Origin: Niallia circulans
Lineage (GTDB): Bacteria > Bacillota > Bacilli > Bacillales > Cytobacillaceae
Assembly: GCF_007273535.1 (NCBI RefSeq)
Contig: NZ_RIBP01000004.1
Coordinates: 1,278,001 to 1,342,000, forward strand
Reading direction: 5' to 3'
DNA: 64,000 nt
In this document: piece after piece, positions 33,091-61,126 of the stretch
Numbering within the stretch: the first letter of the stretch is position 1
How the letters are laid out: each line of letters begins with the position of its first letter
Notes under the pieces: generated by a model
Seen by the model: only the letters and a program-made list of their open reading frames with translations
Databases searched by the model: none
Told to the model about the DNA's origin: nothing
Made by a program: the position numbers and the translations under genes

Positions 33091-33290
33091 AATAGTTCGT
33101 TTCATTGCGCTGCACACACTCACTTTCCGCAAGGTCTTCACCCTTCCTCTATGTACCTTAGTAATAGAGTGTCCTCTTTTATGTTCTACCATTATTTATA
33201 ATTATTGTAATTAAATAGAAAAAAGTAAATAAAAAAACTGAACTATTGATCGATAACCGATAAAATAGTTCAGTTATAACTTATACGTAA
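33091..33290 (-). repeat. Degenerate, partial copy D of the dispersed terminator-bearing repeat
   Basis: Minus-strand copy related to the elements at 37204, 47533 and 60816. Shared blocks are AGTTCGTTTCATTGC (33094-33108), the TTCCTCTAT...CTTAGTA region, and a 12-bp hairpin AACTGAACTATT / AATAGTTCAGTT (33236-33275) followed on the minus strand by a T-run. The left terminal repeat is decayed and the other end is missing. It starts about 20-30 bases after the stop of the minus-strand regulator gene. The rest of the 32814-33310 gap shows nothing recognisable. Confidence 0.6.
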
Positions 33291-33310
33291 ATAAATTTTT
33301 CTCAACCTCA

Positions 33311-34189
33311 TTAGGAATGCTCTTTCCAACTGTCTATCTTCTCTTGAATATATTCGGTATATCGGGTATCCTTTACTAATTGAAAAATAAGAAGAGCTTC
33401 TTTCATATAATTGCTGGCAAGGTTATATTTCTCCTGCATTTCGTAGTTAAATCCGATATGATAGTGAAAATGGGCAAGAAGATAAAGGTTGTCCTTTTTG
33501 ATCGCCCAATCGATTCCCTTTTTACAATAAGTTATAGAGGATTCATATTTATTTAAGTCTGTCAGTGATTTAGCAATGTTGAAGAAAAGTCTGCTTTTAA
33601 TGGTGGCATCCTGCAGGTGAGGAATTTTTTGCAACTGAGACAATGCCTTGCAATATATTTGCAACGCTTCCTCATTAAAACCTTCTTCATAATAAAAAAT
33701 GCCTCTGCTGACGAAGATTTCTATTTCCTTTTCCGTAAAGACCTTGTCGTATGTCAAAGCAATAGCTTCATCGATAAGCTTAAGTGCCTTTTGAAAATCA
33801 TGATCTACTTCATAAACATAGATGGCTTTGTGCCAAAGAAGAATTTGATAGTGTTTCTTATTGCGGGTAAATAACGGGTTTTTCTCTTCAGCTTCGACAA
33901 TCTGTTTAATCGTCTCGTAATCAGTATTTCGCCTTGCAGCTTTTAATTGTTCGCTTGTTTCAATAACATAATCTAGTCTTGGAGTTGTGCCGATATCAAA
34001 GAAGTAGTTTACGTCTATACCTAATCTTTGCGAGATTAAGTATAATGTGGAAGATAGCGGAAGAACCTCGCCTTTCTCTATTTTACTGATTTGCGCTTGT
34101 GTGCAGATGTTATGTGAAAGTTCCTTTTGTGAAAGGCCTACTTGTTTTCGCAATTCCTTTATTTTCTCTCCGACAGCTGAAAAATCCAA
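33311..34189 (-). CDS. XRE-TPR regulator of the PlcR/RRNPP type
   Basis: Cytoplasmic regulator of 292 residues: an XRE helix-turn-helix (about 8-60, LSQKELSHNICTQAQISKIEKG) followed by tetratricopeptide repeats to the end. Length and layout match PlcR-like RRNPP sensors, which change DNA binding when an imported peptide occupies the TPR groove. It starts at TTG 34189 behind GGGAGTGA. No papR-like secreted peptide gene is visible on either side, so the ligand is unknown. A degenerate repeat hairpin follows the stop codon. Confidence 0.8.
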   Translation of the reverse strand: MDFSAVGEKIKELRKQVGLSQKELSHNICTQAQISKIEKGEVLPLSSTLYLISQRLGIDVNYFFDIGTTPRLDYVIETSEQLKAARRNTDYETIKQIVEAEEKNPLFTRNKKHYQILLWHKAIYVYEVDHDFQKALKLIDEAIALTYDKVFTEKEIEIFVSRGIFYYEEGFNEEALQIYCKALSQLQKIPHLQDATIKSRLFFNIAKSLTDLNKYESSITYCKKGIDWAIKKDNLYLLAHFHYHIGFNYEMQEKYNLASNYMKEALLIFQLVKDTRYTEYIQEKIDSWKEHS

Positions 34190-34307
34190 TTCATCACTCC
34201 CTAAAAAATATTCCTAAAGTTATATTTTTGTGCATCTACATGTAAAAAAGCCTAAAAAAGGGGCTATATCACTTAAAATCAGTCATAATCGCGAATACAC
34301 CTATTTA

Positions 34308-34528
34308 TATAATATGTTTTAATAGATTATATCGCAATATATTAAGAATATTTTGCTTTTTAAAGAAGTGCCCACCTACGCCTTCTTTAAGCAAGGAGCA
34401 CTATATGCCTTAATTGAGCACTTTTAATAGAAGCTATTGTTTCTATTAAACCCCATTTATCTGTTTTACGAGTAGTCCTTTTATCTCCAATTTTCTGCCG
34501 TTTTCTTTCTGAGAGCGGTCTTTTTTTT
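34308..34528 (+). ncRNA. Candidate structured RNA with three stem-loops and a terminator
   Basis: In the 481-base gap between the regulator and the sensor kinase, a TATAAT (34308-34313) precedes ordered structures. Stem 1 is TTAAAGAAG / CTTCTTTAA (34360-34390). AGTGC (34367-34371) can alternatively pair with either of two GAGCACT copies (34396-34402, 34416-34422). Stem 3 is TTTAATAGAA / TTCTATTAAA (34423-34450). A terminator lies at 34498-34528. No coding frame fits. Promoter and RNA are inference. Confidence 0.4.
34498..34528 (+). terminator. Terminator closing the candidate RNA upstream of the sensor kinase
   Basis: CCGTTTTC pairs with GAGAGCGG (8 bp, two G-T), loop 5, then TC and eight T. 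No protein gene ends here, so it must end a non-coding or leader transcript. Confidence 0.65.
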
Positions 34529-34632
34529 GTTTATTAATGAAAAACCCACCCCTAATCAACAGCTAACCCAATAATAACTACTCCCGCAATTGGTATGAAT
34601 ACTTAAGGCAATTTAATCCTCGCTGTTCTATC

Positions 34633-34641
34633 TGCTATAAT
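34633..34641 (+). promoter_or_regulatory. Extended -10 promoter of the sensor kinase operon
   Basis: TGCTATAAT (TG-n-TATAAT) lies 30 bases before the kinase start. The -35 region (TTAATC) is weak, as is usual for extended -10 promoters. Confidence 0.5.
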
Positions 34642-34670
34642 AGGGAAAAAACTGTTGGGAGCAAAACCAT

Positions 34671-36269
34671 ATGAGAAAAAGATGGAGCCTGTTCGCTACC
34701 ATTATGACACTTATCAGTGCTGTCGTCATTTTCTCTCTACTAATGACAGATATATTGATAAGCAATCTGCTGAATGATCATACCAAAAACAGCCTTGAGG
34801 AAAAGGCGTTAATGATAGCCAGAGTTATGGCAAAAACAGAGCTTGTGACAGATGCTCTTGAAGGAGATGAAGCTGCTCTTAATAAGATACAAGCTTATAC
34901 AAGTGACATACAGGAGCAAAATGGAGTAGAATTTATCGTAATTCTAAATATGGACGGAATTCGCTTAACACATCCAGATGTCCGAAAAATAGGAAAGAAG
35001 TTTCAGGGCGGTGACGAGACTGAAGCAATGTCAGGAGAAGAGCACACAAGCACTTCAGAAGGAACATTAGGGAAGTCCTTGCGGGCCCTTACCCCGATTT
35101 ATTCAGATGATGGAACACAGATTGGTGTAGCGGCAGTTGGGATTTCGCTTGCTAAGGTCAATGAAGTATTGTCTGAAGGCAAATGGATTATTGTATATGG
35201 ATCATTACTGGGGTTAATTGCAGGCATTGTTGGTGCTTACATTCTGGCGAGCTATATTAAAAGAGTGATGTTTAACCTTGAACCAGCCGCTATCGCTAAA
35301 CTGCTCCAAGAGAGAAGCGCGGTCATCAATTCTGTCAGAGAGGGCATTATAGCAGTAGATATGCAAGGGAATATTACGCTTGTGAACCAGTCGGCCATCG
35401 ATTATTTACAAAAGCTTGGATTGAACACAAACCCAATCGGCTTACCAATAAGCAGCTATATTCCTTCCAAAGGACTTGATCGTGTTTTGGCAAAAGGAGA
35501 GGAGCAGCTTGATGAGGAGCTGACTATAAATGGCACAACAATCCTTGTTAACAGGGTGCCAGTTAAAGTCGATAAAACAATAGTCGGCGCATTGTCCACC
35601 TTTAGAGACAAGACTGAAATAAAGCAATTATCCGATCAGCTTTCAGGTGTAAAAACATATGCAGAAGCATTACGGGCACAATCCCATGAATTTATGAATC
35701 GTATGCAAGTTATCATCGGCATGCTTCATATGAAAAATTACGACAGGCTCAAGGAATATCTTGATGATATAGTCGATCAGCAAAGCGGAGATATTTCTGC
35801 GATTACAAGTAATATTAAAGATCCTGTTATAGCAGGACTTCTTCTCGGAAAGCTAAGTTATGCAAGAGAAAAAGGAGCAGTTTTGAATATTAGTATTATG
35901 ACAGTTGTTCCTGAATTAACGGCAGCAGTTTCATACGAAATTATAACGATACTAGGGAATTTACTGGATAATGCTTTAGATGCAGTCGAAAACAGTTCAA
36001 CAAAGGAAATTGAATTAAAGTTTGCTAAGACCGGTGGAATGATTGAAATGATAGTGAAGGATACAGGTAAAGGGATAACAATAGAGGAAGAGGCTTATAT
36101 CTTTGAAAAGGGCATTTCCTCAAAGGGAGAGAACCGCGGCTTCGGTCTTTATTTGGTCAGTGAGAGCTTGCGAAAGCTGAACGGAAAGATAGAGTTGGAA
36201 AGTGTTCCTGATAAAGGGACAACATTTAAAGCAAGTATCCCATATGTAAAGGAGGAAAACGGAAGGTGA
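34671..36269 (+). CDS. DcuS/CitA-family sensor histidine kinase
   Basis: Membrane sensor kinase of 532 residues, of the group that senses citrate, malate or C4-dicarboxylates. Two membrane helices (about 9-30 and 170-192) flank an extracytoplasmic PDC sensor domain. A cytoplasmic PAS domain (about 215-320) and an SPOB-type kinase core follow, with phospho-accepting His339 in AQSHEFMNRMQVI. The ATPase N and G boxes are NLLDNALDAVE and GFGLYLVSESL. The stop overlaps the response regulator start in GTGA. No transporter or metabolic target lies next to it, so the ligand cannot be named. Confidence 0.88.
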   Translation: MRKRWSLFATIMTLISAVVIFSLLMTDILISNLLNDHTKNSLEEKALMIARVMAKTELVTDALEGDEAALNKIQAYTSDIQEQNGVEFIVILNMDGIRLTHPDVRKIGKKFQGGDETEAMSGEEHTSTSEGTLGKSLRALTPIYSDDGTQIGVAAVGISLAKVNEVLSEGKWIIVYGSLLGLIAGIVGAYILASYIKRVMFNLEPAAIAKLLQERSAVINSVREGIIAVDMQGNITLVNQSAIDYLQKLGLNTNPIGLPISSYIPSKGLDRVLAKGEEQLDEELTINGTTILVNRVPVKVDKTIVGALSTFRDKTEIKQLSDQLSGVKTYAEALRAQSHEFMNRMQVIIGMLHMKNYDRLKEYLDDIVDQQSGDISAITSNIKDPVIAGLLLGKLSYAREKGAVLNISIMTVVPELTAAVSYEIITILGNLLDNALDAVENSSTKEIELKFAKTGGMIEMIVKDTGKGITIEEEAYIFEKGISSKGENRGFGLYLVSESLRKLNGKIELESVPDKGTTFKASIPYVKEENGR

Positions 36270-36973
36270 TTTCGGTATTAATTGTAGAAGATGATCCAAT
36301 GGTGGCTGAATTTAACAAGCAGTTCCTGCAAGAGCTGAATGGCTTTAAAATCGGCGGTGTTGCCAATAATGTGGATGATGCGATAGAGATAATAAAGAGG
36401 GAAAGCATCGATTTAGTACTACTTGATGTGTTTATGCCTGGAAAAAGCGGACTGGAGTTTCTTTCCTACATACGGGAACTGAACGAAAACATGGATGTCA
36501 TCCTTATAACAGCCGCATCTGACATGGACCATATCCAAACAGCGCTTCGCTTAGGAGCAATCGATTATATCATTAAACCATTTAAATTTGAGCGTTTTAA
36601 GGAATCATTGATGAATTACGTCCAAAAGAAGGAGTTTATGAAAGAGCAAACGAAGGTCAGCCAAAGTATATTAGATGAGCAAATTCTGAACCGTGACCAA
36701 AAAGGTGCAAGAGCAGAATTGCCGAAAGGGTTGACAAAAGAAACATTGAAGATTGTCTGGGCGGCAATAGAACTACAGCAGGAGCAAGAGTTCACGACAG
36801 ATATCATCGCAGACGAAACAAAGATATCAAGAGTTTCAGTAAGAAAATACCTCAATTTTCTTAACGAGCAGGATATCATTAAAGTAAGACTGACATACGG
36901 AAGCATCGGCAGACCAGTTAACGTTTATTATACGAACCCAAAAAGGATTGGCTGGCTTGAGCAGTTTTTGTGA
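36266..36973 (+). CDS. DcuR/CitB-family response regulator
   Basis: A 235-residue regulator: receiver domain (about 1-120) with phospho-accepting Asp54 (LLDVFMPGKSG), acidic pocket Glu8-Asp9-Asp10 (VEDDP) and Lys in IIKPFKFE. A C-terminal helix-turn-helix (about 175-215, TKISRVSVRKYLNFL) is typical of CitT/MalR/DctR. It starts at GTG 36266 inside the kinase stop and is translationally coupled to it. A copy of the dispersed repeat with a terminator-like hairpin lies 231 bases downstream. Confidence 0.88.
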   Translation: MISVLIVEDDPMVAEFNKQFLQELNGFKIGGVANNVDDAIEIIKRESIDLVLLDVFMPGKSGLEFLSYIRELNENMDVILITAASDMDHIQTALRLGAIDYIIKPFKFERFKESLMNYVQKKEFMKEQTKVSQSILDEQILNRDQKGARAELPKGLTKETLKIVWAAIELQQEQEFTTDIIADETKISRVSVRKYLNFLNEQDIIKVRLTYGSIGRPVNVYYTNPKRIGWLEQFL

Positions 36974-37203
36974 TTAGTAGGTGAAAGCAGTCTTGGTTGT
37001 CTGCTGGTAAGGAAAGGGGATATTGATTTCCGCTTTAGTGCTACGTTGCGCCCGAGGAAGTACAGGAAAGTTTGCTTTTAGTCTCGGCTGTTTTCCTAAT
37101 GTAAGTAGACGTTTCTTCTATCCGTTCCAATCTATTTATTGTTTAAATGGAGTTCATTCTTATTGAATAGATTAGAGGCTGCAATTAGTTTGCAGTATAA
37201 GAG

Positions 37204-37524
37204 AAGAGGCTGGGACATAAGTAAGTGAATCTGTATAAAATCCGAACTATTTAATCATCAATCAACGATTAAATAGTTCGGCTTTTTTGTGTTTTTAAGT
37301 TTTGATACACTGATTAGAAAACTTAGTGGAATGGAGCGGAGGTCACTCGACTCCTGCGGGAAATAGAGGACGCTTTAGACCCCGCAGGCGAAGACGAGCG
37401 CGCAATGAAACGAACTAATTTTAAACCCAAATTCTATTTAGTCACGTGTTTCATTTTTTAAATTTAGATGTAATTTTATTATTCGTGTTTAGAAAGGTTA
37501 TCTTTTGTTTTGTCCCAGCCTCTT
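37204..37524 (+). repeat. Copy A of the dispersed terminator-bearing repeat (best preserved)
   Basis: A 321-bp element with perfect 14-bp terminal inverted repeats AAGAGGCTGGGACA / TGTCCCAGCCTCTT. Near the left end is a 15-bp hairpin (CCGAACTATTTAATC, 37242-37256, with its complement at 37267-37281) followed by a T-run. The core contains TTAGTGGAATGGAGCGGA, a CCTGCGGG/CCCGCAGG stem, and CAATGAAACGAACTAATTTT. No open frame encodes a transposase, so it is MITE-like. It lies 3' of the response regulator on the same strand. Bases 36974-37203 show only a weak resemblance to other Bacillaceae intergenic repeats. Confidence 0.85.
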
Positions 37525-37575
37525 TTCTATTTACTGTTGTCGGTTTAAAGACATTGATTAAAAACCTGTACTATT

Positions 37576-37965
37576 TTACAAAAACCGCTTTCTCGTATCC
37601 TTCGTCGGCAGCATACAATGCTCCCTTTTGCCAAACCATTTATATCTATTTTTAGCGACATAATTATAGAGCGGATCTCTTAGAAATGCAGGGATGATTT
37701 TAAAGACATAAAGAAGCTTCCAGGCTCCACGTAAATGGCGACAGATTTGCAGAGCGGCAGCTGACTTTTCATAAAGTCTGCCATTTTCAATAAGAATAAC
37801 ACTATTCATCGATAATTCCTGATTGAATGGACGGAGAAGCTGCTGACCCTTTTCCTCCTGCAGCGGAGCAAAGGAAAAATAAGCTTCAGGATCCCTTTTT
37901 ATAATAAATTGGACAGCGCCATTGCAAAGATTGCAGACACCATCAAATAATATGACTGCTTTCAC
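37576..37965 (-). CDS. DCC-family thiol-disulfide oxidoreductase (DUF393, YuxK-like)
   Basis: A 129-residue protein of the DUF393/DCC family. The N-terminal motif DGVCNLC holds the CxxC pair Cys11/Cys14 in a thioredoxin-like fold. A second conserved stretch is LYVFKIIPAFLRDPLYNYVAKNRYKWFG, split over about 86-113. Substrate unknown. It starts at GTG 37965 behind AGGTGG. It is a single gene between the repeat and the divergent penicillin-binding protein gene. Confidence 0.85.
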   Translation of the reverse strand: MKAVILFDGVCNLCNGAVQFIIKRDPEAYFSFAPLQEEKGQQLLRPFNQELSMNSVILIENGRLYEKSAAALQICRHLRGAWKLLYVFKIIPAFLRDPLYNYVAKNRYKWFGKREHCMLPTKDTRKRFL

Positions 37966-38213
37966 TTTACCACCTGCGTTTCTAGCTTTTTATATTACTC
38001 TAACATGTGCTTTATAAGATTTCATTTCTTTTCCTAATATAAGGGCTAAATATTACAAGAAAATGACAGATTGTCTTATAATATTATTGAAGCATAGCAA
38101 GTGTCAGTTCACAAAACATCGTGGTAAACTGTTAATTTTTTGTGGACTGTTGTAATATTCTTTTAATTTAAGTGTAAAAAATGGTACGCTAATGTTAGGA
38201 GGGGAAAAGGAGA

Positions 38214-40217
38214 ATGAAGAAACTATTTTGGCTATTGCCGATGATTCTAATTGCGATATTGGCTGGATGTAATAATGATGAGCCTACCCCAGATGAGAGG
38301 CTTTCCCAATACATAAAGCTTTGGAATGATCAGAAGTTTGATGAGATGTATAACTACCTGTCTTCCGATGCGAAGAAGTCAGTTTCTAAGGAAGAGTATG
38401 TATCCCGCTATGAGAAACTATACAGTGATTTGGAGATTTCAGACTTAGATGTTTCCTATAAAAAGCTGTCAGACGACCAAAAGGATGACAATAAGAAAAA
38501 AGAGACTGCAGAAATTCCGTTCACTGCAAAGATGAACAGCGTCGCAGGCGAGATTAACTTTGACAAAGATGCGAAGCTTGTCAAAGAGGAACGAGACAAG
38601 GAAGACAACTGGTATATTCATTGGGATACAACGTATATCTTTGCCGATTTAGGCGCAGATGACAAAGTATCTTTAGAGACGGTTCCTGCAGAGCGCGGGG
38701 CTATTATGGATGTTCATGAAAATCCATTGGCGATGAATGGCATCATTTATCAAATCGGCCTTGTACCAGAGCAAATGGAGAATGAAACAACAGAAGTTGA
38801 GAATTTAGCGAAGTTGCTTGATATTAAAAAAGAGACTATAGAAAAGGCGTTAAGTGCAGATTGGGTACAACCTAACCTGTTTGTGCCAATTAAGAAATTA
38901 GCGACAGGCGATCAAGCATATCTTGAAAAGCTGTTTGCTCTTCCAGGTGTACAGAAACAGGATGTTGCTGGAAGGATTTATCCTTATGGTGAGGCAGCGG
39001 CCCACTTAATTGGTTATATTGGCAACATTACGGCTGAAGAGCTGGAAAAGCAAAAGGGCAAAGGATATACTGGCTCTGACGTTATCGGAAAAAGAGGCTT
39101 GGAGCAAGTCTATGAAGAAAAACTAAGAGGCACAAATGGTGCGACGATAGCTATTAAGAAATCAGATGGCACGACAGTAACCTTGGCAGATAAAGAAGTT
39201 AAAAATGGAGAAAACATCATGCTGACAATTGATGGAGATCTTCAAAAGAAAATATATGATGAAATGGATGGAGAGGCAGGATCAGCAGCTGCCATAAATC
39301 CGACAACTGGTGAAACGATGGCTCTTGTCAGCAGCCCGTCCTATGATCCAAACAAGGTTGTCGCAGGTTTAACGACATCAGAGCAAGAGGACTATAACAA
39401 CAATAAACTGGAGCCCTTCACAAATCGCTTTAAGAATACTTATGCTCCAGGCTCTGTGCTGAAGCCGATTGTCGCAGCGGCAGCATTGACAGAAGGTGTT
39501 ATCACACCAGAGCAACAGCGGAAGATTACGACAAAGCAATGGCAAAAGGATAAATCTTGGGGCAATTATTATGTAACTAGAGTGCATACTAGCAGTGCAC
39601 CAGTTAATCTGGCAGATGCCCTGCTTTACAGTGATAACATTTACTTTGCGCAGACAGCATTAGATTTGGGCAAGGATAAATATACAACAGAGCTGAAGAA
39701 ATTCGGTTTTGAAGAGGATTTCGATTTTGCTTACCCTATCACGAAAGCAACAATTGGCAAGCTTGACAGTGATATTCTCTTAGCTGATTCAGGCTATGGC
39801 CAAGGTCAAGTTCAAACAAGTGTTATTCAGCTTGCGACAGCGTATACACCATTTGTTAACGACGGCAATCTGATTAAACCTGTTCTTCTCCAAGATGACA
39901 AGAAGGGGACTGTTTGGAAAGAGGGAGTTATGAGCAGCAGTACTGCTAATACCATTTCCGATGATTTGCAGCAGGTCATTGACAATCCAAGCGGAACAGC
40001 TCGTGCCGGCAAAATTAGCGGCATGACATTTGCTGGAAAAACAGGCACAGCAGAGCTGAAGGCAAAGCAAGGTGAAAAAGGTACAGAAAACGGCTGGTAT
40101 GTAACATATGATAAGAAGGATAAAGATATCCTTATTGCCATGATGATTGAAGGTGTGCAAGACAAGGGTGGCTCAAGCCATGTCGTGAAAAAAGTAAAAA
40201 ATATTCTCGAAGACTAG
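38214..40217 (+). CDS. pbpC: Class B penicillin-binding lipoprotein (PBP3/MecA type)
   Basis: D,D-transpeptidase that cross-links peptidoglycan outside the membrane (667 residues). The lipobox LAGC makes Cys19 the lipidated residue, so it is a lipoprotein like B. subtilis PbpC. An NTF2-like MecA N-terminal domain (about 25-145) and a dimerisation domain (about 150-330) precede the transpeptidase domain. Active-site motifs are Ser414-VLK, SDN (473-475) and KTG (609-611). Proteins of this shape in Bacillus contribute low-affinity beta-lactam tolerance; that is family knowledge, not shown here. It is monocistronic with a strong terminator. Confidence 0.92.
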   Translation: MKKLFWLLPMILIAILAGCNNDEPTPDERLSQYIKLWNDQKFDEMYNYLSSDAKKSVSKEEYVSRYEKLYSDLEISDLDVSYKKLSDDQKDDNKKKETAEIPFTAKMNSVAGEINFDKDAKLVKEERDKEDNWYIHWDTTYIFADLGADDKVSLETVPAERGAIMDVHENPLAMNGIIYQIGLVPEQMENETTEVENLAKLLDIKKETIEKALSADWVQPNLFVPIKKLATGDQAYLEKLFALPGVQKQDVAGRIYPYGEAAAHLIGYIGNITAEELEKQKGKGYTGSDVIGKRGLEQVYEEKLRGTNGATIAIKKSDGTTVTLADKEVKNGENIMLTIDGDLQKKIYDEMDGEAGSAAAINPTTGETMALVSSPSYDPNKVVAGLTTSEQEDYNNNKLEPFTNRFKNTYAPGSVLKPIVAAAALTEGVITPEQQRKITTKQWQKDKSWGNYYVTRVHTSSAPVNLADALLYSDNIYFAQTALDLGKDKYTTELKKFGFEEDFDFAYPITKATIGKLDSDILLADSGYGQGQVQTSVIQLATAYTPFVNDGNLIKPVLLQDDKKGTVWKEGVMSSSTANTISDDLQQVIDNPSGTARAGKISGMTFAGKTGTAELKAKQGEKGTENGWYVTYDKKDKDILIAMMIEGVQDKGGSSHVVKKVKNILED

Positions 40218-40219
40218 TC

Positions 40220-40258
40220 AAAAGCCTGTAAGGGATTCACTCCTTTACAGGCTTTTTT
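40220..40258 (+). terminator. Terminator of pbpC
   Basis: AAAAGCCTGTAAGGGA pairs with TCCTTTACAGGCTTTT (16 bp, one G-T), 5-base loop, then T. Confidence 0.9.
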
Positions 40259-40333
40259 AACTAGAACAGCAAAAAATAATGGTATTGTTTTTCCTTATGA
40301 AATTTTTTCCACTATTTTAAAGCGGTAAAAAAA

Positions 40334-45453: not shown

Positions 45454-45783
45454 ATGGCTAATATGGAAGAAACAGTATTCCAGATTATCCTCCACGGGGG
45501 AAACGGAAAAAGCTGCGCAATGGAAGCAATTGCTGCTGCTAAAGAAGGAAACTTCGAGCTTGCTAAACAAAAGATGGAAGAAGCTGCAGAAGCACTTAAT
45601 GATGCCCATCATATCCAAACATCCCTTATTCAAAATGAAGTAAGAGGAAACAAAATTGAGGTATCCCTGTTAATGGTGCATGCACAGGATCACTTAATGA
45701 ACGCAATAACGCTTAAAGATTTAGCACAAGAAATTATTGATTTATATGAACTTGTTAAAACTCCTGGAGGTGTCCAAAAATGA
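45454..45783 (+). CDS. licA: PTS beta-glucoside/cellobiose IIA component
   Basis: Helical phosphocarrier of the lactose/cellobiose family (109 residues). The phosphorylated His is His76 in MVHAQDHLMNA, with Asp79 as the family's metal ligand. It receives phosphate from HPr and passes it to LicB. The stop overlaps the licH start by four bases (ATGA), so the hydrolase is translationally coupled. Confidence 0.92.
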   Translation: MANMEETVFQIILHGGNGKSCAMEAIAAAKEGNFELAKQKMEEAAEALNDAHHIQTSLIQNEVRGNKIEVSLLMVHAQDHLMNAITLKDLAQEIIDLYELVKTPGGVQK

Positions 45784-47108
45784 CAAACGGAATTAAAATT
45801 GCCACTATTGGCGGAGGATCAAGCTATACACCAGAACTAGTAGAAGGTTTCATTAAACGTTACGAGGAATTACCTATCAGAGAACTATGGCTTGTTGATA
45901 TTGAAGCAGGTAAGGAAAAGCTTGAAATCGTTGGTAACCTGGCAAAACGTATGATTGAAAAAGCAGGCTTGCCAATTGAGGTGCATTTGACACTTGACCG
46001 CAGAGAAGCACTTAAGGATGCAGACTTTGTTACAACACAATTCCGTGTCGGCCTACTTGATGCTCGTGCGAAAGATGAAAGAATTCCGTTAAAATATGGC
46101 GTGCTTGGCCAAGAAACAAACGGACCTGGCGGATTGTTCAAAGGCTTGCGAACAATTCCTGTTATTTTAGATATTTGTAAGGATATCGAGGAGCTATGCC
46201 CGAACGCTTGGCTGATTAACTTCACAAACCCAGCTGGTATGGTAACAGAAGCAGTTCTGCGCTATTCAAACATCAAAAAAGTAGTCGGTCTGTGCAATGT
46301 TCCAATCGGTATGGAAATGGGTATCGCGAAGCTTCTAGATGTTGATCATTCAAGAGTCCGCATTGACTTCGCTGGATTAAACCATATGGTATACGGCTTA
46401 GATGTGTATGTCGATGGAGAAAGCGTGAAGGATAAAGTAATCAACCTTCTAACAGATCCAAATAACAGTTCATTTGTTAAAAATATCGAAGGTCTTGGCT
46501 GGGAGCCAGAATTCATTAAAGCATTAAATGTGCTTACATGTCCTTACCATATGTACTACTATAAAACGAGTGAAATGATTGCTAAAGATCAAAAGAACTC
46601 GAAAAGTGAAGGAACTCGTGCAGAAGTCGTGCAAGCACTTGAAAAAGAATTGTTTGAGCTTTACAAAGATCCAAACCTTGCTATTAAGCCACCACAATTG
46701 GAAAAACGCGGAGGAGCATACTATTCTGATGCGGCAGTACGTTTGATCAATTCTATATACAATGACAAACGCGATATTCAGCCTGTTAATACAATCAATA
46801 ACGGAGCTATCGCTGGCATTCCGAATGACTCTGCAGTTGAAGTTTCCAGCATCATTACAAAGGATGGTCCAAAACCAATCGTAATGGGTGAGCTTCCAGT
46901 AGCGGTAAGAGGACTTGTACAACAAATTAAATCCTTTGAAAGAGTTGCAGCAGAAGCAGCAGTAACAGGTGACTATGACAAAGCAATCCTGGCTCTTACA
47001 ATCAACCCGCTATCTCCATCAGATACGGTTGCGAAGGAAATTGTTGACGAAATGCTTGAAGCACATAAAGAGCATTTACCACAGTTCTTCAACAAGGTTG
47101 AAGCATAA
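45780..47108 (+). CDS. licH: 6-phospho-beta-glucosidase, GH4 family
   Basis: NAD- and metal-dependent glycosidase that splits the 6-phospho-beta-glucosides delivered by LicBCA (442 residues). The N-terminal Rossmann motif is ATIGGGSSYTPELVEG. The metal ligands are the Cys of GLCNVPIGM and the His of FAGLNHM, both present. GH4 enzymes act by oxidation-elimination rather than ordinary hydrolysis. It is the last gene of the operon, with a terminator directly after it. No licR regulator gene accompanies the operon here. Confidence 0.92.
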   Translation: MTNGIKIATIGGGSSYTPELVEGFIKRYEELPIRELWLVDIEAGKEKLEIVGNLAKRMIEKAGLPIEVHLTLDRREALKDADFVTTQFRVGLLDARAKDERIPLKYGVLGQETNGPGGLFKGLRTIPVILDICKDIEELCPNAWLINFTNPAGMVTEAVLRYSNIKKVVGLCNVPIGMEMGIAKLLDVDHSRVRIDFAGLNHMVYGLDVYVDGESVKDKVINLLTDPNNSSFVKNIEGLGWEPEFIKALNVLTCPYHMYYYKTSEMIAKDQKNSKSEGTRAEVVQALEKELFELYKDPNLAIKPPQLEKRGGAYYSDAAVRLINSIYNDKRDIQPVNTINNGAIAGIPNDSAVEVSSIITKDGPKPIVMGELPVAVRGLVQQIKSFERVAAEAAVTGDYDKAILALTINPLSPSDTVAKEIVDEMLEAHKEHLPQFFNKVEA

Positions 47109-47252: not shown

Positions 47253-47372
47253 TTAAACAGCGGCTTCCTCTGTATTGTCTTTTTGTGTAAATAAATAAGC
47301 TAAGTAGGAGTGAAGCTCAAACTTTTCATTAATGATAAAATCCTTTACATCTAATTTCGTCATCTTATTCAT
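47253..47372 (-). CDS. 39-residue small protein with strong ribosome site
   Basis: Unrecognised. Starts MNKMTKLDVKDFIINEKF, continues with the hydrophobic/aromatic stretch ELHSYLAYLFTQ and ends KDNTEEAAV. The start codon is preceded by AAAGGAGGAATTGACG, a near-perfect Shine-Dalgarno at proper spacing, which is the main evidence for translation. No Cys, no signal peptide and no clear membrane helix. It is isolated between licH and the repeat cluster, with a G+C-richer inverted repeat (about 47198-47227) downstream. A regulatory peptide or small sporulation protein is possible; no function is claimed. Confidence 0.55.
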   Translation of the reverse strand: MNKMTKLDVKDFIINEKFELHSYLAYLFTQKDNTEEAAV

Positions 47373-47467: not shown

Positions 47468-47510
47468 GTCGAGTATGCTTCGCTCCATTTCACTAAGTTT
47501 TTAATTATTG
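47468..47510 (-). repeat. Fragment of the dispersed repeat, next to copy B
   Basis: On the minus strand, ACTTAGTGAAATGGAGCGAA and ACTCGAC match the core of copies A-C. It lies 22 bases beyond the outer end of copy B in the same orientation, so it is a remnant of an earlier or tandem copy. Confidence 0.6.
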
Positions 47511-47532
47511 CCTTTAGATCAATAACATAAAA

Positions 47533-47842
47533 AAGTGGCTGGGATAAAACAAAAGATAACCTTTCAATACGCGAATAATAAAATTATAACTAAATTTAAA
47601 AAATGAAGGTTGTGTCTAAATAGAATAGGGAGTTAAAATTAGTTCGTTTCATTGCACGCGCGTCCTCGCCTGCGGGGTCTTATCCTTTCCTCTATTTCCC
47701 TTAGTAGTCGAGTGGCCTCCGCTCCATTCCACTAAGATTTCTAATTATTGTATTAAAACTAAAAATAAAAAGACCGAACTACTTAATCTGATTAAGTAGT
47801 TCGGTCTTTGCGCTGATTCACATACTTATGTCCCAGCCTCTT
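47533..47842 (-). repeat. Copy B of the dispersed terminator-bearing repeat
   Basis: A 310-bp minus-strand copy. The end near the exonuclease gene is the perfect terminal repeat (TGTCCCAGCCTCTT on the plus strand, ending 47842). The other end has two changes (AAGTGGCTGGGATA). The hairpin is the strongest of all copies: a 19-bp perfect stem with loop CTG (47769-47809), followed on the minus strand by T-rich sequence. The core shares AGTTCGTTTCATTGCACGCG and GCCTGCGGGGTC with copy A. It begins 45 bases after the stop of the minus-strand exonuclease gene. Confidence 0.85.
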
Positions 47843-47886
47843 GAATTAGAGTTACATATTTGTGTTGACCTCGTAAGCATCAGTTG

Positions 47887-53962: not shown

Positions 53963-53967
53963 TGCCG

Positions 53968-53996: not shown

Positions 53997-54057
53997 AAAA
54001 ACAAACAAATTTAAGTTTTGTTTATAAAAATACAAACTTTTAATCGGAGTGTTTGTT

Positions 54058-54810: not shown

Positions 54811-54827
54811 ATAAGCAGGTGAATGAA

Positions 54828-55169: not shown

Positions 55170-55200
55170 GAAGGATAGGTATCAAATCTATCCTTCTTAA
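55166..55200. terminator. Bidirectional terminator between GIY-YIG and Nudix genes
   Basis: A perfect 13-bp inverted repeat TTAAGAAGGATAG / CTATCCTTCTTAA. Each end overlaps the stop codon of a convergent gene. Confidence 0.8.
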
Positions 55201-55622: not shown

Positions 55623-55768
55623 TTATAAAAACCTCCTTAACTAATTTATTATCACTCTTTCAGATTACGATACATACGGCAAAAGAGAAAGGTGGAATGA
55701 TACAATATATGGTAACGGAGCTGTTGTATTTGTCCCCAGAAATATCTATCAAACGATAGGAGCATTTT

Positions 55769-56011
55769 TTGTACTTTGTTTCTATCACATTAATCCTTCG
55801 TTTGCTGCCCTTAGTGGAGAGCTTTATTGCTAATATTCTCGCTAAAATAATAATTGGACTGCTGCTCGTTTTTATTATTTTGCAAGTATTAGCTAGAAAT
55901 CAAAACTGGACGATAAAGCTCAAAGCATGGTGTGAAAGGTATAAAATCAGCTTGCCAGTTTTATATATTGTTTATATTGGCATCTATTTTGTAATTAGTG
56001 TCTTTATTTAA
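55769..56011 (+). CDS. Small membrane protein
   Basis: Unrecognised, 80 residues. Two hydrophobic segments (about 1-43, probably two short helices, and 60-80) flank a basic loop (NWTIKLKAWCERYK). TTG 55769 follows ATAGGAG at acceptable spacing. It is monocistronic, before the dinB-like gene. Confidence 0.6.
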   Translation: MYFVSITLILRLLPLVESFIANILAKIIIGLLLVFIILQVLARNQNWTIKLKAWCERYKISLPVLYIVYIGIYFVISVFI

Positions 56012-56082
56012 ACGATAGTCAGGAAGGGAAAAACGGAAAAAAGCAGAATCAAATAAGAGAGATGAAAAAAGGAGTGACAGGA

Positions 56083-56598
56083 ATGAAACCAGCAATTACC
56101 GATTACCCAGAGTACTATCAAAATTACGTTAGTCTAGTGCCTAAAGGAGATATTATTCAAATCATAGAAAGTCAGCTTGAGGAAACAAAGAGTCTACTTG
56201 CCGGCATAACCAAAGAGCAGGCTGACTTTCGATATGCGGAAGGGAAATGGAGTGTTTTAGAGGTTGTCGGCCATGTGATGGATACGGAAAGAATTATGAA
56301 CTATCGCATTTTACGAATGGCAAGAGGCGATCAAACACCGCTTTCCGGGTATGATGATGAAATGTATGTGGAAGCGTCCCTCTTTTCAAGCAGAACAATT
56401 GCAGACCTTTTGGCAGAATGGACGATTGTGAGAGCTGCAACTGTTGCCTTGCTTAAAGGGTTACCTAAGGATGCTTGGGAAAGAACAGGATTTGCCAATA
56501 ATGGTGAATTTACCGTCAACTCTATCGCCTATATTATTGCAGGCCATGAGCGCCACCATGCAGGGCTATTGAAGTCGAGATATTTGCTTGAAGCTTAA
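56083..56598 (+). CDS. DinB-family putative metalloenzyme
   Basis: A 171-residue four-helix-bundle protein of the DinB/YfiT superfamily. The metal-site histidines are visible in VVGHVMDTERI and AGHERHHAGLL. Members include bacillithiol S-transferases and thiol-dependent enzymes; which activity applies is unknown. ATG 56083 is preceded by AAGGAGTGACAGG; an upstream in-frame ATG (56062) overlaps the ribosome site. Confidence 0.82.
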   Translation: MKPAITDYPEYYQNYVSLVPKGDIIQIIESQLEETKSLLAGITKEQADFRYAEGKWSVLEVVGHVMDTERIMNYRILRMARGDQTPLSGYDDEMYVEASLFSSRTIADLLAEWTIVRAATVALLKGLPKDAWERTGFANNGEFTVNSIAYIIAGHERHHAGLLKSRYLLEA

Positions 56599-56621
56599 AT
56601 AATGGGTTATTGAAACAGCAC

Positions 56622-56651
56622 AGGGACTGGAGTCAATTCAGTCCTTTTTTA
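56622..56651 (+). terminator. Terminator after the DinB-family gene
   Basis: GGACTG / CAGTCC (56624-56629 with 56639-56644), extended by two weaker pairs, followed by a T-run. Confidence 0.75.
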
Positions 56652-56754
56652 ATTTCTAAATCGAAGCTGCCGATGATTGCCATAGAAATATTCCGCTTTT
56701 GTGATGGATGTGGACATAATAAAATAAAAGGAGCAAGAGAAGGAGGTTTTTATA

Positions 56755-57720
56755 ATGAAGGCATTATGCTTTATGCAATTTGGACCGAAGGAAGTGTTAA
56801 AGCTGATGGAGGTGCCAGATCCAATCGTCCAAGAACACGAGATAATAGTTCGAACAAAAGCAATAGGCGTTAATTATGCAGATATATACAGAAGGAAAGG
56901 CAATTATCATCTTGAAGGAGAGCCGCCGTACATTCTTGGTTATGAAGGGGCCGGAGTTGTGGAAGCAGTTGGTGCTGGAGTAAAGGATATTAGCGTTGGT
57001 GACCGGATTGCTTTTGCAGATGTTCCTTATGCCAATGCTGAATTAGTAGCAGTTCCTGCCGATAAAGCGATTCCTGTTCCTGCTGATATTACTTTTGAAG
57101 AAGCGGCAGCAGTTTTGCTCCAAGGGTTAACAGCACAGTATTTGTCTGCAGACAGCTTTACTGTGAAACAAGGAGACTTCGTGGTTGTTCATTCAGCCGC
57201 TGGCGGTGTTGGACAGCTGCTTGTGCAATTGGCAAAGCTTAAAGGCGCGGTAGTTATTGCGATTGCTTCGACATCAGAGAAGGCGGCAGCAGCAAAAGCG
57301 GCAGGAGCAGACCACACATTAACATATGAAGGAGACTGGATTGCTGCAGTTAAGAAGCTGACAGAAAAAACAGGCGCAGATGTTGTTTATGATGCTGTTG
57401 GGGCAACATTAATGCAGAGCTTTGAGGCAGCAAAAACAGGCGGGACGGTCGTATTTTACGGGATGGCTGGAGGAGATCCGCCATTGATTGATCCGCGTAT
57501 GCTCATGGATACAAGCAAAACGCTAACAGGTGGAGATTTGTGGAATGTTCTTCAAACAAGAGCAGACAGAATCAGCCGTTCTGGCGAACTGTTTCAGCTA
57601 ATGGCAGCAAATCGGCTCCTGCTCCCGCATATAACTACTTTTCCGTTAAGCGAGGGACAAGCTGCTCATGGTCTATTGGAAAGCAGACAAAACATCGGAA
57701 AAATAATCCTCCTGCCGTAA
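56755..57720 (+). CDS. NADPH:quinone oxidoreductase (zinc-independent MDR family)
   Basis: A 321-residue medium-chain reductase. The N-terminal catalytic domain contains IGVNYADIYRRKGNY and lacks the zinc-binding residues of alcohol dehydrogenases. The Rossmann domain begins VHSAAGGVGQLLVQLAK. It likely reduces quinones or enones with NADPH. The AAGGAGG ribosome site is strong. Convergent with the following GNAT gene. Confidence 0.88.
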   Translation: MKALCFMQFGPKEVLKLMEVPDPIVQEHEIIVRTKAIGVNYADIYRRKGNYHLEGEPPYILGYEGAGVVEAVGAGVKDISVGDRIAFADVPYANAELVAVPADKAIPVPADITFEEAAAVLLQGLTAQYLSADSFTVKQGDFVVVHSAAGGVGQLLVQLAKLKGAVVIAIASTSEKAAAAKAAGADHTLTYEGDWIAAVKKLTEKTGADVVYDAVGATLMQSFEAAKTGGTVVFYGMAGGDPPLIDPRMLMDTSKTLTGGDLWNVLQTRADRISRSGELFQLMAANRLLLPHITTFPLSEGQAAHGLLESRQNIGKIILLP

Positions 57721-57744
57721 GGGCTGGAGGATAACGATTAGCTA

Positions 57745-58131
57745 TTAATCCAAATAAAGCACACCACCAGCTGACACAGTAAATCCAGTTGTTCTGTAAA
57801 AGTTGGCATTATGCTCATCAAAGGAAACAGTCAAAATACCTAATCCAAAGCTTTTTGCCTCTTCAATCAAAGTCTTCACGAGCTCTACGCCAATTCCTTG
57901 TTTTTGCCTGCTTGGGTGAACGATAATATCCTCTAAATATCCATGCTCAAGTCCCATTCCACAAACATAGCCGAAAGCGATTAGCTTGCCAGCTTCATCC
58001 CTGGCTCCTGCCCAGAAATTACATCTTTCAAACAGGGCAGGGTAATCCTTGTCCCGTCTGCCCCAGCCGACAGCCTCCCGTAAATCTGGGACTTCATTAT
58101 CTTGAATCGGAAGATTGACCATTATTCGCAC
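57745..58131 (-). CDS. GNAT-family N-acetyltransferase
   Basis: Single GNAT domain of 128 residues. The acetyl-CoA loop is VHPSRQKQGIGVELV and the C-terminal core is NANFYRTTGFTV. GTG 58131 has GGAGGG at good spacing. An upstream TTG (58137) is too close to it, and ATG 58122 is a further option. Substrate unknown. Confidence 0.8.
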   Translation of the reverse strand: MRIMVNLPIQDNEVPDLREAVGWGRRDKDYPALFERCNFWAGARDEAGKLIAFGYVCGMGLEHGYLEDIIVHPSRQKQGIGVELVKTLIEEAKSFGLGILTVSFDEHNANFYRTTGFTVSAGGVLYLD

Positions 58132-58278
58132 GAGCAATTCCCTCCATAATGTTTATAAATAACTGCTATAAAGCTATTATAAAGGAATAAATATAGGCAA
58201 CCGACTATTTTTTTGCAAAAAAAGAATCTTTATGAAGGTACATTCGTATAGTTACATCATGAGAGTGGGGTGATAAGT

Positions 58279-58662
58279 ATGGGAAAAACAAAAACAGTTA
58301 TGACAGGCATTTTATCAACGGCTGTCCTAATTGGGATTACAGGCTGCAGCAGCAGCGGGACAGCGACAGGCAATTCAAACAGCAATAGTGATATCCCGCC
58401 AGTTCCAGATGATACGAACTGTACAAATTGGGAATGGGATGATGATGATGGCGTTTGGGAATGTGAGGACAGCAATTCCCGCTACTACGGCCATTATTTT
58501 TATGGCGGCAAATATTATAATTCCAAGTCCTCCTTGTTGAAGAATACAAGCTACAAGAAGCAACAGCAATCAAGCAGCCCCAGTTCGAGTGTGAGCGGCG
58601 GCAGTGACTCAACAAACAAAAGCAGCGGCTTCGGCAGCGGGAAGAAGAGCTACGGAGGCTAA
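58279..58662 (+). CDS. Lipoprotein of the DUF350/ATP-grasp operon
   Basis: A 127-residue lipoprotein. The lipobox ITGC makes Cys23 the lipidated residue. The exterior has a DDDDGVWECE stretch, a Tyr/Gly-rich YYGHYFYGGKYY segment and a Ser/Lys/Gly-rich tail. In position it corresponds to the YgiB/YjfM (DUF1190) lipoproteins found with YjfL and YjfC in enterobacteria, though sequence similarity could not be tested. ATG 58279 follows GGGGTGA. Confidence 0.75.
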   Translation: MGKTKTVMTGILSTAVLIGITGCSSSGTATGNSNSNSDIPPVPDDTNCTNWEWDDDDGVWECEDSNSRYYGHYFYGGKYYNSKSSLLKNTSYKKQQQSSSPSSSVSGGSDSTNKSSGFGSGKKSYGG

Positions 58663-58687
58663 TAAATGTTAGGAAGGAAGTGTAAAA

Positions 58688-59086
58688 GTGAACTTATATC
58701 TTAATTTCGGTTCTTATTTAGGAGTAGCAATCTTGCTGCTTGTCATCGGTATTCTGTTATTTATGTTAAGTACGCCAAAAATAAACGAAATGAGGCTTAT
58801 CGCTGAAAAAAACGTCAGTGCAGCACTTTTGCTTGGCGGTAAGGTGATTGGACTTGCGATTGTATTAGGAGCGGCAGCTGAATATTCTGTTTCACTTATA
58901 GATATGGCAATCTGGGGAGCAATCGGAATTGTTTCGCAAATTATCGTATTTGTGTTGGCAGAGGTGGTGACAATCCGCTTTAGCATCAGCAATGCTATTA
59001 AAGAAGATAACCGGGCAGTTGGTGTGATGCTGTTTTCGTTGTCACTTGCGATCGGCTGGATTGTGGCAAAATGTCTGTCCTATTAA
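58688..59086 (+). CDS. DUF350 membrane protein (YjfL-like)
   Basis: A 132-residue membrane protein with four hydrophobic helices (about 8-28, 45-66, 70-95 and 108-130) and the DUF350 pattern LLLGGKVIGLAIVLGAAAEYS. Function unknown. It typically co-occurs with glutathionylspermidine-synthase-like ATP-grasp enzymes, as here. It starts at GTG or ATG within the AGGAAGTGTAAAAGTG context; the operon continues 15 bases later. Confidence 0.8.
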   Translation: MNLYLNFGSYLGVAILLLVIGILLFMLSTPKINEMRLIAEKNVSAALLLGGKVIGLAIVLGAAAEYSVSLIDMAIWGAIGIVSQIIVFVLAEVVTIRFSISNAIKEDNRAVGVMLFSLSLAIGWIVAKCLSY

Positions 59087-59101
59087 TGAGGGAGATGTAG
59101 A

Positions 59102-59557
59102 ATGAAGAAACTGACGTATTTTATAGACAAAGGGAATGGCCAATATGATCCATTTTATGAATATGATGTTCGGGATGTCGGTGTTGATGAGCTGTATGCA
59201 CGGCAATTATGCACATACCTCATCCTAAGAGGACAGCAATATGAGCTTGTTTCCAATGAGATGGATGGCAATGAAGAGATACTCGTTATCGAGGATAGAG
59301 GCAGAAATGTATCGGTTCTTGATGAAAAGAGCTACAGAGGCCAAGGTATTCATATAGAGTTCAGGAACCATCGTGAAACAGATAACTACAAGCTATTATC
59401 TCATATCCCGATTGCAAGCCACTTTGAGGTAATCCGCTATTTATTGAAGGATATCATTGATGTGCCTGCTGTTGGCCAAATGGAGGTAACATCAACAGAA
59501 ATTGATGAGGACAGAGGCGTTTATGTCCTGTACGTAAAGGACTTGGAGGAGGAGTAA
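59102..59557 (+). CDS. Unknown cytoplasmic protein of the DUF350/ATP-grasp operon
   Basis: Unrecognised, 151 residues, no membrane segment or signal. It has an acidic C-terminus (VKDLEEE) and mixed alpha/beta pattern. Its conserved position between the DUF350 protein and the ATP-grasp ligase suggests a partner or substrate-handling role. It ends two bases before the ligase start, so the two are translated together. Confidence 0.7.
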   Translation: MKKLTYFIDKGNGQYDPFYEYDVRDVGVDELYARQLCTYLILRGQQYELVSNEMDGNEEILVIEDRGRNVSVLDEKSYRGQGIHIEFRNHRETDNYKLLSHIPIASHFEVIRYLLKDIIDVPAVGQMEVTSTEIDEDRGVYVLYVKDLEEE

Positions 59558-59559
59558 GG

Positions 59560-60789
59560 ATGGATCGCCATATAATAGACAGAAGGCGCTTCTATTCACA
59601 GATAGACAGCTTTTGGGCAGACCTTTACGGGGAGGAGTATGCCCTTTACGATGTGCACTTGTTAGAAAGAGGAGAGGTCGAAAAGATTCGTCTTATCAGT
59701 GAAAGGGTTGGCTATATTTTCTTCAAGGCTTGGAGGCTTTTGAAGGAGGTACCAGACAGGACATTCCGGGAAATGGGCTTCCCAGAAGAGGTGTTTTCCT
59801 TCCTGCGCCTTGACACGATGGAACAGGCCAGCGTCATTTCAAGGCTGGATTTAATTCCTTATAACGGCAGCTATAAATGCATTGAAATCAATGCAGATAC
59901 GCCAACCTTTATCAAGGAGCTGTTTTCCATTAATGCCAAGGTTTGTGCTGAGTTCAAGGTGGAAAATCCAAATGCAGGTATGGAGGAGGCGCTAAGGAAT
60001 GCTGTGCGCACTGCGATAAAAGCAGCAGCGAAAATAAGTGGCAAGGCAAGCCCGACTGTTGCCTTTACTGCTCATGATGACAATATTGAAGACAAGGAAA
60101 CGATTCTTTATTTACAGGAATTATCAGAGACGCTTGGAACATACATACCGCTGCATATGCTGCAAATTGAAAGAGGCAAAGGGCTGTTTGATGTGGCTGG
60201 AAATCAGATTGATATACTGTACAGACAAACCTTTCCGATTGAAAACCTTATCCTTGATGAGGATGAGGAGGAAAATAAAATCGGTATGTGGCTGTTAGAG
60301 TTAGTTGAGGAAGGAAAGCTGTCCATTATCAATCCTCCGTCTGCATTTCTCCTGCAAAACAAGGCAGTTCAAGCAGTGATTTGGAGCCTTCATGAGCAAC
60401 AGCACGCCTTCTTTACAGAAGCTGAGCATCAGTGGATAGAAAATTACTTGTTACCAACCTATTTAGAACCTGATCCATTTATAGAACAAAACACAGCTTA
60501 TGTGAAAAAACCGGCATTTGGCAGAGAAGGAGACACTGTTGAAATCTACAAAGGAAGCGGCAAGCTATCAGCCGCAGACCCGCAGCAATCATATACCGAC
60601 TTCCTGCCAGTCTACCAACAATACGTCGAGCATCCAAAAGCACCAATCCAAACAGAAAAAGGCAAGCAAGAAGCAAATCTCCTCGTCGGCAGCTTCCTAC
60701 TCAATGGAAAACCATCAGCCATCGGACTCCGAGCTGGAGGGACAATAACGAATAACTTGTCTTATTATTTGCCTGTTGGAGTACGTTGA
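59560..60789 (+). CDS. Glutathionylspermidine-synthase-like ATP-grasp ligase (YjfC/YgiC family)
   Basis: A 409-residue carbon-nitrogen ligase of the GSP_synth family without the N-terminal amidase of E. coli Gss. Recognisable elements are the pre-ATP-grasp region (FYSQIDSFWADLYGEEY), the nucleotide-binding stretch VKKPAFGREGDTV and a C-terminal AGGTITNNLS. Family members join an amine or peptide to a carboxylate using ATP; the substrate here is unknown. The strong GGAGGAGTAAGG ribosome site lies at the end of the upstream gene. Copy C of the dispersed repeat begins 27 bases after the stop. Confidence 0.85.
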   Translation: MDRHIIDRRRFYSQIDSFWADLYGEEYALYDVHLLERGEVEKIRLISERVGYIFFKAWRLLKEVPDRTFREMGFPEEVFSFLRLDTMEQASVISRLDLIPYNGSYKCIEINADTPTFIKELFSINAKVCAEFKVENPNAGMEEALRNAVRTAIKAAAKISGKASPTVAFTAHDDNIEDKETILYLQELSETLGTYIPLHMLQIERGKGLFDVAGNQIDILYRQTFPIENLILDEDEEENKIGMWLLELVEEGKLSIINPPSAFLLQNKAVQAVIWSLHEQQHAFFTEAEHQWIENYLLPTYLEPDPFIEQNTAYVKKPAFGREGDTVEIYKGSGKLSAADPQQSYTDFLPVYQQYVEHPKAPIQTEKGKQEANLLVGSFLLNGKPSAIGLRAGGTITNNLSYYLPVGVR

Positions 60790-60815
60790 TTAAGTGGAAT
60801 ACTGGATAATAAGGA

Positions 60816-61126
60816 AAGAGAATGTGACATAAATTTATAACATTGATTGAAACCAAACTATTTAGTGTTTATGGATTAATAGTTTGGTTTTTGTGTTTTT
60901 ACGGTTTATATACAATAATTAAAAACCTTAGTGGAATGGAGCGGAGAACACTCGACTCCAGCTTCCTCCCCGCGGAAAGCGCGAGGACGAGCGCGCAATG
61001 AAACGAACTAATTTTGTAACCATATTCTATTTATATCCCGAAGCTCCATTGTTTCAAAGTTAGCTGTAATTATTATTTATTATTCGGATTTATAAAAACT
61101 ATCATTTGTTTTGTCCCATTGTCATT
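60816..61126 (+). repeat. Copy C of the dispersed terminator-bearing repeat
   Basis: A 311-bp plus-strand copy with degraded terminal repeats (AAGAGAATGTGACA and TGTCCCATTGTCATT). The hairpin AAACCAAACTATT / AATAGTTTGGTTT (60850-60890) is followed by a T-rich run. Core blocks TTAGTGGAATGGAGCGGA and GCAATGAAACGAACTAATTTT are identical to copy A. The hairpin sequence differs from copy A yet stays paired, which points to selection or concerted change on structure. It fills the gap between the ATP-grasp operon and the metallopeptidase gene. Confidence 0.8.

Follow-up and report, generated by a model that had tools for sequence, protein, structure and literature searches.

Bacterial miniature inverted-repeat transposable elements (MITEs) are short, non-coding sequences that occur in many copies and are bounded by terminal inverted repeats (TIRs) common to autonomous insertion sequences (ISs), and they usually make a target duplication. 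Among members of the IS1182 family, IS1272 and TnSha1 of staphylococci are described as targeting hairpins, part of the stem-loop being deleted with blunt ends and the target not being duplicated; insertions occurred in both orientations and five of seven targets were terminators according to RNA-seq (PMC4923244). A 64,000-nucleotide stretch of the Niallia circulans genome (contig NZ_RIBP01000004.1, positions 1,278,001–1,342,000; hereafter the window) carries copies of a dispersed MITE-like repeat that differs from usual MITEs: its target hairpin has been lost, and no target duplication is seen. The repeat is very probably a miniature IS1182 derivative that replaces a native terminator hairpin by its own hairpin without target duplication, a reading drawn from sequence comparison (shared ends, exchange of element for hairpin between sister species, kept pairing, and orientation bias).

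The element is ~320–360 bp, non-autonomous, without a transposase gene, and has the ends GAGGCTGGGACA...TGTCCCAGCCTC. From left to right it consists of GAGGCTGGGACATAAG, an A-run, a hairpin, a T-run, an AT-rich stretch, a GC-rich core (TTAGTGGAATGGAGCGGAGGCCACTCGACTCCTGCGGG...), CAATGAAACGAACTAA, and TTTTGTCCCAGCCTC as the right end. The stable hairpin and the T-run after it have the form of an intrinsic terminator and, with the A-run before it, the hairpin is possibly a bidirectional terminator. A profile applied to merged stretches fetched from the genome of the window (G000) identified 81 elements or fragments, of which 76 retained the left end (profile start no later than position 60), though the true number of elements may exceed 76. 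Short, transposase-less, TIR-bounded, and dispersed over these 76 places, the repeat has the makeup of a MITE.

Exchanges were sought in two sister species (G005 and G002; ~91–96% identity to G000 in long alignments of the window) and in a further relative (G006), and the element stands in place of a gene's native intrinsic terminator and does not add a further one. In the window the exchange is clean at positions 22356 and 55173, where G000 holds the native terminator (Table 1), and at copy B, where the element is present in G000 and G005 and the native terminator AAACCCTAACAATGATGG...CCATCATTGTTAGGGTTT occurs in G002 with the flanks kept. Outside the window, 42 elements were probed by searching with the 3′ ends of the genes upstream of them (matches listed: 40 in G002, 40 in G005, and 28 in G006; stretches fetched: 40, 40, and 20, respectively, for a total of 100). 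Six elements without a right end in the profile were dropped, leaving 36, and six more without an element-free ortholog in G005, G002, or G006, leaving 30 comparable sites. Automatic criteria called for a hairpin and T-run in the ortholog, absence of the hairpin arms in G000, and alignment of the right flank 3′ of the ortholog hairpin, and 24 of the 30 sites passed them all. The left residue equaled that of the relative within 2 bp at 18 of the 24 sites and within 5 bp at 21, and the native hairpins replaced were 18–29 bases long (22 trusted passing sites). The exchange at C4:2261484 is exact, with AGCAGGCGGATAAATATCCGCCTGCT between TAG and GTTTTT in G005 and GAGGCTGGGACA...TGTCCCAGCCTC between the same flanks in G000. 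In the filled and empty pairs the flanks were kept, the hairpin was lost, and no target duplication was visible; the target-site duplication usual for MITEs is thus not seen, and a hairpin target with stem-loop deletion and no duplication is the mode of IS1272. Two gaps with back-to-back terminators contain an exchange on either side: at C4:2117088 the element replaces the hairpin of the left gene in G000, and G005 and G002 keep this left hairpin and have an oppositely oriented element at the terminator of the right gene; at C4:641235 the left terminator is replaced in G000 and the right one in G002, in opposite orientations.

Several observations weigh against replacement as the general rule or against an IS1182-type origin of it. 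Only three of the five window sites for which a sister species lacks the full element are clean. A scan of the relatives' loci with the left-end model for remnants removed copies C and D from the clean exchange sites and made p41 doubtful, p33 having failed before. At the copy C site, the hairpin of G002 (CCCGAACAAGTAT...ATACTTGTTCGGG) adjoins a remnant that resembles a TIR, and the model matches there weakly (22.8 bits, E 0.2); these traces probably mark a decayed element. G006 has an unrelated native terminator at this site. At the copy D site, a native terminator follows the stop in G002 (GAAAGAGTGGTAGTTGCGAAACTACCACTCTTTT) and also in G006, and ~370 bp of extra sequence precede the shared right flank in G002, because of which only the left junction supports replacement. 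Two passing sites in the survey are doubtful, p4 with a poor hairpin and p41 with an element-like hairpin in the relative (E 0.62 with the left-end model, R1), and six sites failed (p5, p8, p9, p25, p33, and p38), among which p5 and p9 resemble replacements on visual inspection and p33 has element remnants in the relatives (R1, 38.7 and 39.3 bits). A duplication of a few bases could hide inside the A- or T-runs, and all filled and empty pairs compared were MITE copies, with no full IS1182 element among them. Seven copies in gaps between tandem genes are oppositely oriented. The search for IS1182-type (P0001-like) transposases, with the best 10 candidates scored per genome, recovered none at E 1e-60 or better in G005 or G002, and no present mobiliser was seen there. 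Lastly, the native terminator persists at C4:2815587 (p37), and a left-end fragment lies 47 bp downstream of the stop codon.

A native terminator and an element fragment held together, as at C4:2815587, would be expected if the element had inserted in the ordinary way just after a stop codon and the redundant native terminator had then decayed, and redundancy would indeed relax selection. At the replaced sites, however, the right flank continues with the post-hairpin sequence of the relative, free of a decayed hairpin, for example at identities of 50/50 (p20), 47/47 (p18), 48/49 (p19), and 47/50 (p15), and the distance from stop to element matches that from stop to hairpin at the 18 sites within 2 bp. 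There is also no room for remains in convergent gaps where the element ends touch both stops (−1/−1 at C4:381333 and −2/0 at C4:1239741). Decay after insertion is therefore very improbable as an account of these sites.

The direction of the exchange follows from the relatives. Two element-free relatives were available at 26 sites, and at 24 of these the second one also retains both arms of the hairpin (≤2 mismatches); G000 does so at five of 30 sites, all with arms ≤8 bp. Because relatives of different species share the native hairpin, the direction is element gain in the G000 lineage. The reverse order, in which the element was lost and a terminator arose at its site, is extremely improbable: either polarity would fit at window position 55173, where G000 is native and both sister species have the element, but the sharing of the hairpin by two other species at those 24 sites speaks against it, and the hairpins vary between sites and so are not excision scars.

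Replacement by a MITE raises the matter of its parent element. The ends GAGGCTGGGACA(A/T)AA are common to IS1182-family elements, and one IS in G000 (C3:747250-748993) has the same GAGGCTGGGACAAAAC ends and encodes a transposase scoring 347 against model NF033551 (cut-off 270), the one IS1182 transposase frame without an internal stop in this genome. This IS lacks a facing stop nearby and was left out of the empty-site comparisons. A P0001-like transposase (E 1e-60 or better) occurs in 25 of the 151 genomes of the family, and many of the related IS copies fetched are bounded by GAGGCTGGGACA and contain a hairpin close inside both ends. Ends were found at 24 of 35 such loci, of which 18 have a facing stop (reading frame ≥60 codons) within 26 bp, two of these 18 loci sharing identical flanks. 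For one of the IS1182 insertions (L390), the orthologs in G003 and G004 (L432 and L435) have palindromes after the stop that are too diverged for an exact junction. An eight-copy element in another genome (G139) has related ends, GAGGCTGACTC...GGGACACCCTC, and a transposase 41–42% identical to P0001, and the GC-rich core of the MITE lies between this transposase and one end; in the core alignment six of the copies match column by column and two are offset by a single base. Because it shares ends and core with the G139 element, the MITE looks like an IS1182-family element minus its transposase, its TIRs and further parts being common to autonomous ISs, and we read it as a likely transposase-less derivative of such an IS. 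The core-bearing copies in G139 are L400, L414, L418, L422, L424, L426, L428, and L430. The core also resembles a repeat widespread in Bacillaceae, solo copies of which may be relics of IS1182-like elements. One IS1182 copy in a further genome (L419, G056) is flanked by an apparently retained stem, AACCCCATAAAAA...TTTTTATGGGGTT, and hairpin removal may not always be complete.

Exchange could also proceed without a transposase, by recombination or template switching between hairpins of like A-run, stem, and T-run form. The element ends AAAAAGAGGC...GCCTCTTTTT are terminator-like, some targets share the outer stem with the element (AAAAAGAGG/CCTCTTTTT at C4:381333), and the sister species yielded no IS1182-type transposase in the search above, all of which would suit such a process. 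The exchanged unit is, however, bounded by the same 12-bp termini as full IS1182-family elements, the target hairpins vary from site to site, and IS1272, a transposon, gives the same outcome (PMC4923244), so that a transposase-free route is very improbable.

Under replacement by an IS1182-type MITE, the hairpin of the element would take over from the one removed. Among 26 aligned full copies from the genome, most with TIRs at both ends, stem pairing was kept by two-sided changes at five of the 11 pairs, a number reached by three of 500 shuffles and one that kinship of the copies can inflate, in agreement with the statement in an initial annotation of the window that the hairpins differ yet stay paired. 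Of the 69 left ends without a splitting insertion, 66 have a folding energy of −7 kcal/mol or lower, and for 64 no more than five of 100 shuffles fold as well; a stricter test for stem and T-run was passed by 46. Copy B as a query had at least 50 matches in the genome (best 40 of 123 candidates scored), and a covariance model built on the left 106 positions at least 87 at E 0.01 or better (best 150 of 5106 candidates scored), some of which are reverse readings of one and the same hairpin. The left-end model had 57 matches in G005 and 52 in G002. It also had 20 matches at E 1e-6 in a genome of the same order but another family (G027) and none in three of 12 further genomes of the same genus that were searched, a distribution that suggests patchy or horizontal spread. 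Elements or fragments stand in tandem at C4:3017657-3017807 and C4:3069462-3070033 in G000, which suggests that one element can follow or enter another.

The position of the element relative to genes is strongly biased. Gene calls were made with a simple script; by these, the hairpin end points towards a stop codon in 67 of the 76 elements (40 in tandem gaps and 27 in convergent gaps), a start in eight (seven tandem, one divergent), with one undecided; the initial annotation had the hairpin always turned to the stop of the neighboring gene, which is too strong. A tabulation against the upstream stop in the stretches fetched, of the kind proposed there as a check, yielded 40 co-oriented and seven opposite copies in tandem gaps (binomial p ~1e-6), or 39:7 (p 1.8e-6) once corrected for copy B, which was counted among the 40 but is really convergent, the gene after it having been overlooked by the script. 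The hairpin end lies ≤10 bp from the stop in 37 of the 67 cases (median, 8). The right end lies ≤10 bp from a stop in 12 of the 30 cases where it faces one, and never within 30 bp of a start (n = 25). Split by profile score as a proxy for age, the co-oriented and opposite copies numbered 12:4 at scores ≥300 and 28:3 at lower scores (Fisher p 0.21). Autonomous IS1182 relatives were oriented 8:6 at 14 one-sided loci picked by hand (after exclusion of one duplicate and of three loci flanked by stops on both sides), and the comparison of the MITE at 40:7 with these (Fisher p 0.057) mixes species. The contrast is at most suggestive; it hints at, and would be most simply explained by, selection for copies with the hairpin beside a stop codon. 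The description of the repeat as mobile, MITE-like, orientation-biased, and predicted to bear a terminator was thus borne out; as for its role as a portable terminator, the mobility and the predicted terminator stand, but the element replaces an existing terminator and does not add one.

A possible course of events can be outlined. An IS1182-family transposase would move the element, with hairpin DNA as the substrate, either as a cruciform or in a single strand, and would join the element ends to both sides of the extruded hairpin. The hairpin would be lost, often from stem base to stem base, instead of the target being duplicated, and repair would seal the element between the flanking A-run and T-run. 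The hairpin and T-run just inside the left end would then terminate transcription; because the element carries this hairpin and T-run, the neighboring gene would keep a terminator. Preferential survival of copies with the hairpin next to a stop codon would produce the orientation bias.

Hairpin targeting with stem-loop deletion is already known for the IS1182 family, and the MITE resembles IS1272 and TnSha1 in having terminator hairpins as targets without a target sequence consensus (PMC4923244). By the same report, IS1272 and TnSha1 differ from the MITE in carrying a transposase, TnSha1 also carries a passenger gene, TnSha1 is mostly single-copy in the strains sequenced compared to dozens of copies of the MITE, and both orientations were seen in one target compared to 40:7 for the MITE. 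The MITE, unlike both, is 320–360 bp long, has its own terminator hairpin, and usually removes the target hairpin base to base. What is new is a MITE performing hairpin replacement at scale while carrying its own replacement hairpin; a literature search returned no description of this repeat or of a terminator-swapping MITE among the papers listed, and the end sequence as a literature query returned no related paper among the matches listed.

The MITE hairpin is in turn a target. Seven IS3-family copies in G000, which are all the close copies found (98.6–100% identical DNA; Table 1), sit in the loop of a MITE hairpin, each with 3-bp repeats. The element has OrfA and OrfB frames, with an rve domain in OrfB, and short direct repeats, as in the IS3 family; OrfB scores 293.6 bits against model NF033516 (cut-off 160), and OrfA alone scores 70.9 bits, below the cut-off. 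Relatives (L163-L240) were examined at 66 of 80 named loci, and both ends were found at 51. A stem flanks the insertion at 29 of the 51 with loops of at most 14 or 18 bases per side and at 23 with loops of at most nine, in each case at a stem threshold that 1% of mismatched flank pairs reach (0.5 of 51 by chance), and 3-bp repeats occur at 35 of the 51 loci. Stem-flanked relatives are found in Bacillus, Lederbergia, Neobacillus, Paenibacillus, Exiguobacterium, and Clostridium, and for many relatives of the element, in other Bacillota, the insertion site thus appears to be the loop of a terminator-like hairpin. ISPsy8 and IS1397, which insert in REP sequences, are the closest precedents; ISPsy8 enters a palindrome at its axis of symmetry and is flanked by a 3-bp direct repeat, like the loop invader (PMC1525189). 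The targets differ, being REP hairpins for IS1397, ISKpn1, and ISPsy8 (PMC1525189) and here the MITE hairpin and terminator-like hairpins of Bacillota. The IS1447 subgroup of the IS3 family is likewise widespread in Firmicutes with 3–4 bp direct repeats, but its ends begin with TA and those of the loop invader with TG, and the accessible part of that report does not describe a terminator-loop target (PMC6211511). A literature search for terminator loops as a target of this IS3 clade also returned no description among the papers listed.

Replacement of this kind would explain how a mobile element could reach many copies in a compact genome while doing its host little damage, by taking a terminator site and supplying its own terminator. 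The many natural terminator swaps between sister species amount to a natural experiment on changing a gene's terminator, and recognition of the hairpin by the transposase, in duplex DNA or in DNA single-stranded during replication, becomes a testable question. The results also suggest that another IS clade, unrelated to the first, targets terminator loops. A broader proposition, in our judgement evenly balanced between true and false, is that the intrinsic terminators of Bacillota are a standing transposon niche filled in two opposite ways, by IS1182-type elements and MITEs that replace the hairpin and by an IS3 clade that enters the loop with a 3-bp duplication, MITE loops included, and that selection for the terminating orientation makes the MITE a portable terminator drifting towards a host part. 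If true, a single family would be able to supply dozens of genes with the same terminator.

All four copies of the repeat that the initial annotation had placed in the window were recovered close to where it had put them (copies A–D; Table 1). Copy B has the perfect 14-bp TIRs that had been ascribed to the best copy (AAGAGGCTGGGACA/TGTCCCAGCCTCTT), inside a 21-nt repeat with a 90% match. The core said to be common to the copies is so in part: CAATGAAACGAACTAATTTT occurs at all four with 0–2 mismatches (four matches at ≤3 mismatches compared to 0.02 expected in shuffles), but TGGAATGGAGCGGA, exact in copies B, C, and D and in a fragment at 62428, was not found in copy A within 3 mismatches. In all four copies the hairpin is more stable than its shuffles (z −4.0 to −10.0), and a scan of the window against 4227 Rfam families had no match at gathering score. 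Copies B and D are located in convergent gaps, where one end faces a stop in either orientation, because of which the four window copies say little about orientation.

Table 1. Positions of the repeat, native terminators, and IS3-family copies (window coordinates, or contig:position in G000)
Feature	Position	Strand	Remarks
Copy A	33032..33277	-	Degenerate, without clear TIRs; hairpin 33236-33275
Copy B	37201..37527	+	Full-length
Copy B, left TIR	37204-37217
Copy B, terminator hairpin	37237-37286
Copy B, GC-rich core	~37324-37402
Copy B, right TIR	37511-37524
Copy C	47530..47843	-	Full-length; hairpin 47769-47809
Copy D	60813..61122	+	Full-length, diverged; hairpin 60850-60890
Fragment of second element adjoining copy C	47468..47530	-	20.5 bits
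Element fragment, start of core	62389..62441	+	25.7 bits
Native intrinsic terminator hairpin GCAGTCTACTTATGTAGACTGC	22356..22377	+	Element there in G005; hairpin kept in G002
Native terminator hairpin GGATAGGTATCAAATCTATCC, convergent genes	55173..55193	.	Element there in G005 and G002
IS3-family copy L052	C3:54884
IS3-family copy L053	C3:437373
IS3-family copy L054	C4:2117421
IS3-family copy L055	C3:594967
IS3-family copy L056	C3:6114
IS3-family copy L057	C4:350643
IS3-family copy L058	C4:2261591

The gap with copy A (window 32990-33330) has the element in G005 and G002 in the opposite orientation to that in G000, which may reflect an inversion or an independent replacement. Between the gene at 45780-47108 and copy C, a 39-codon reading frame with a good ribosome site is present on the − strand (47253-47372).

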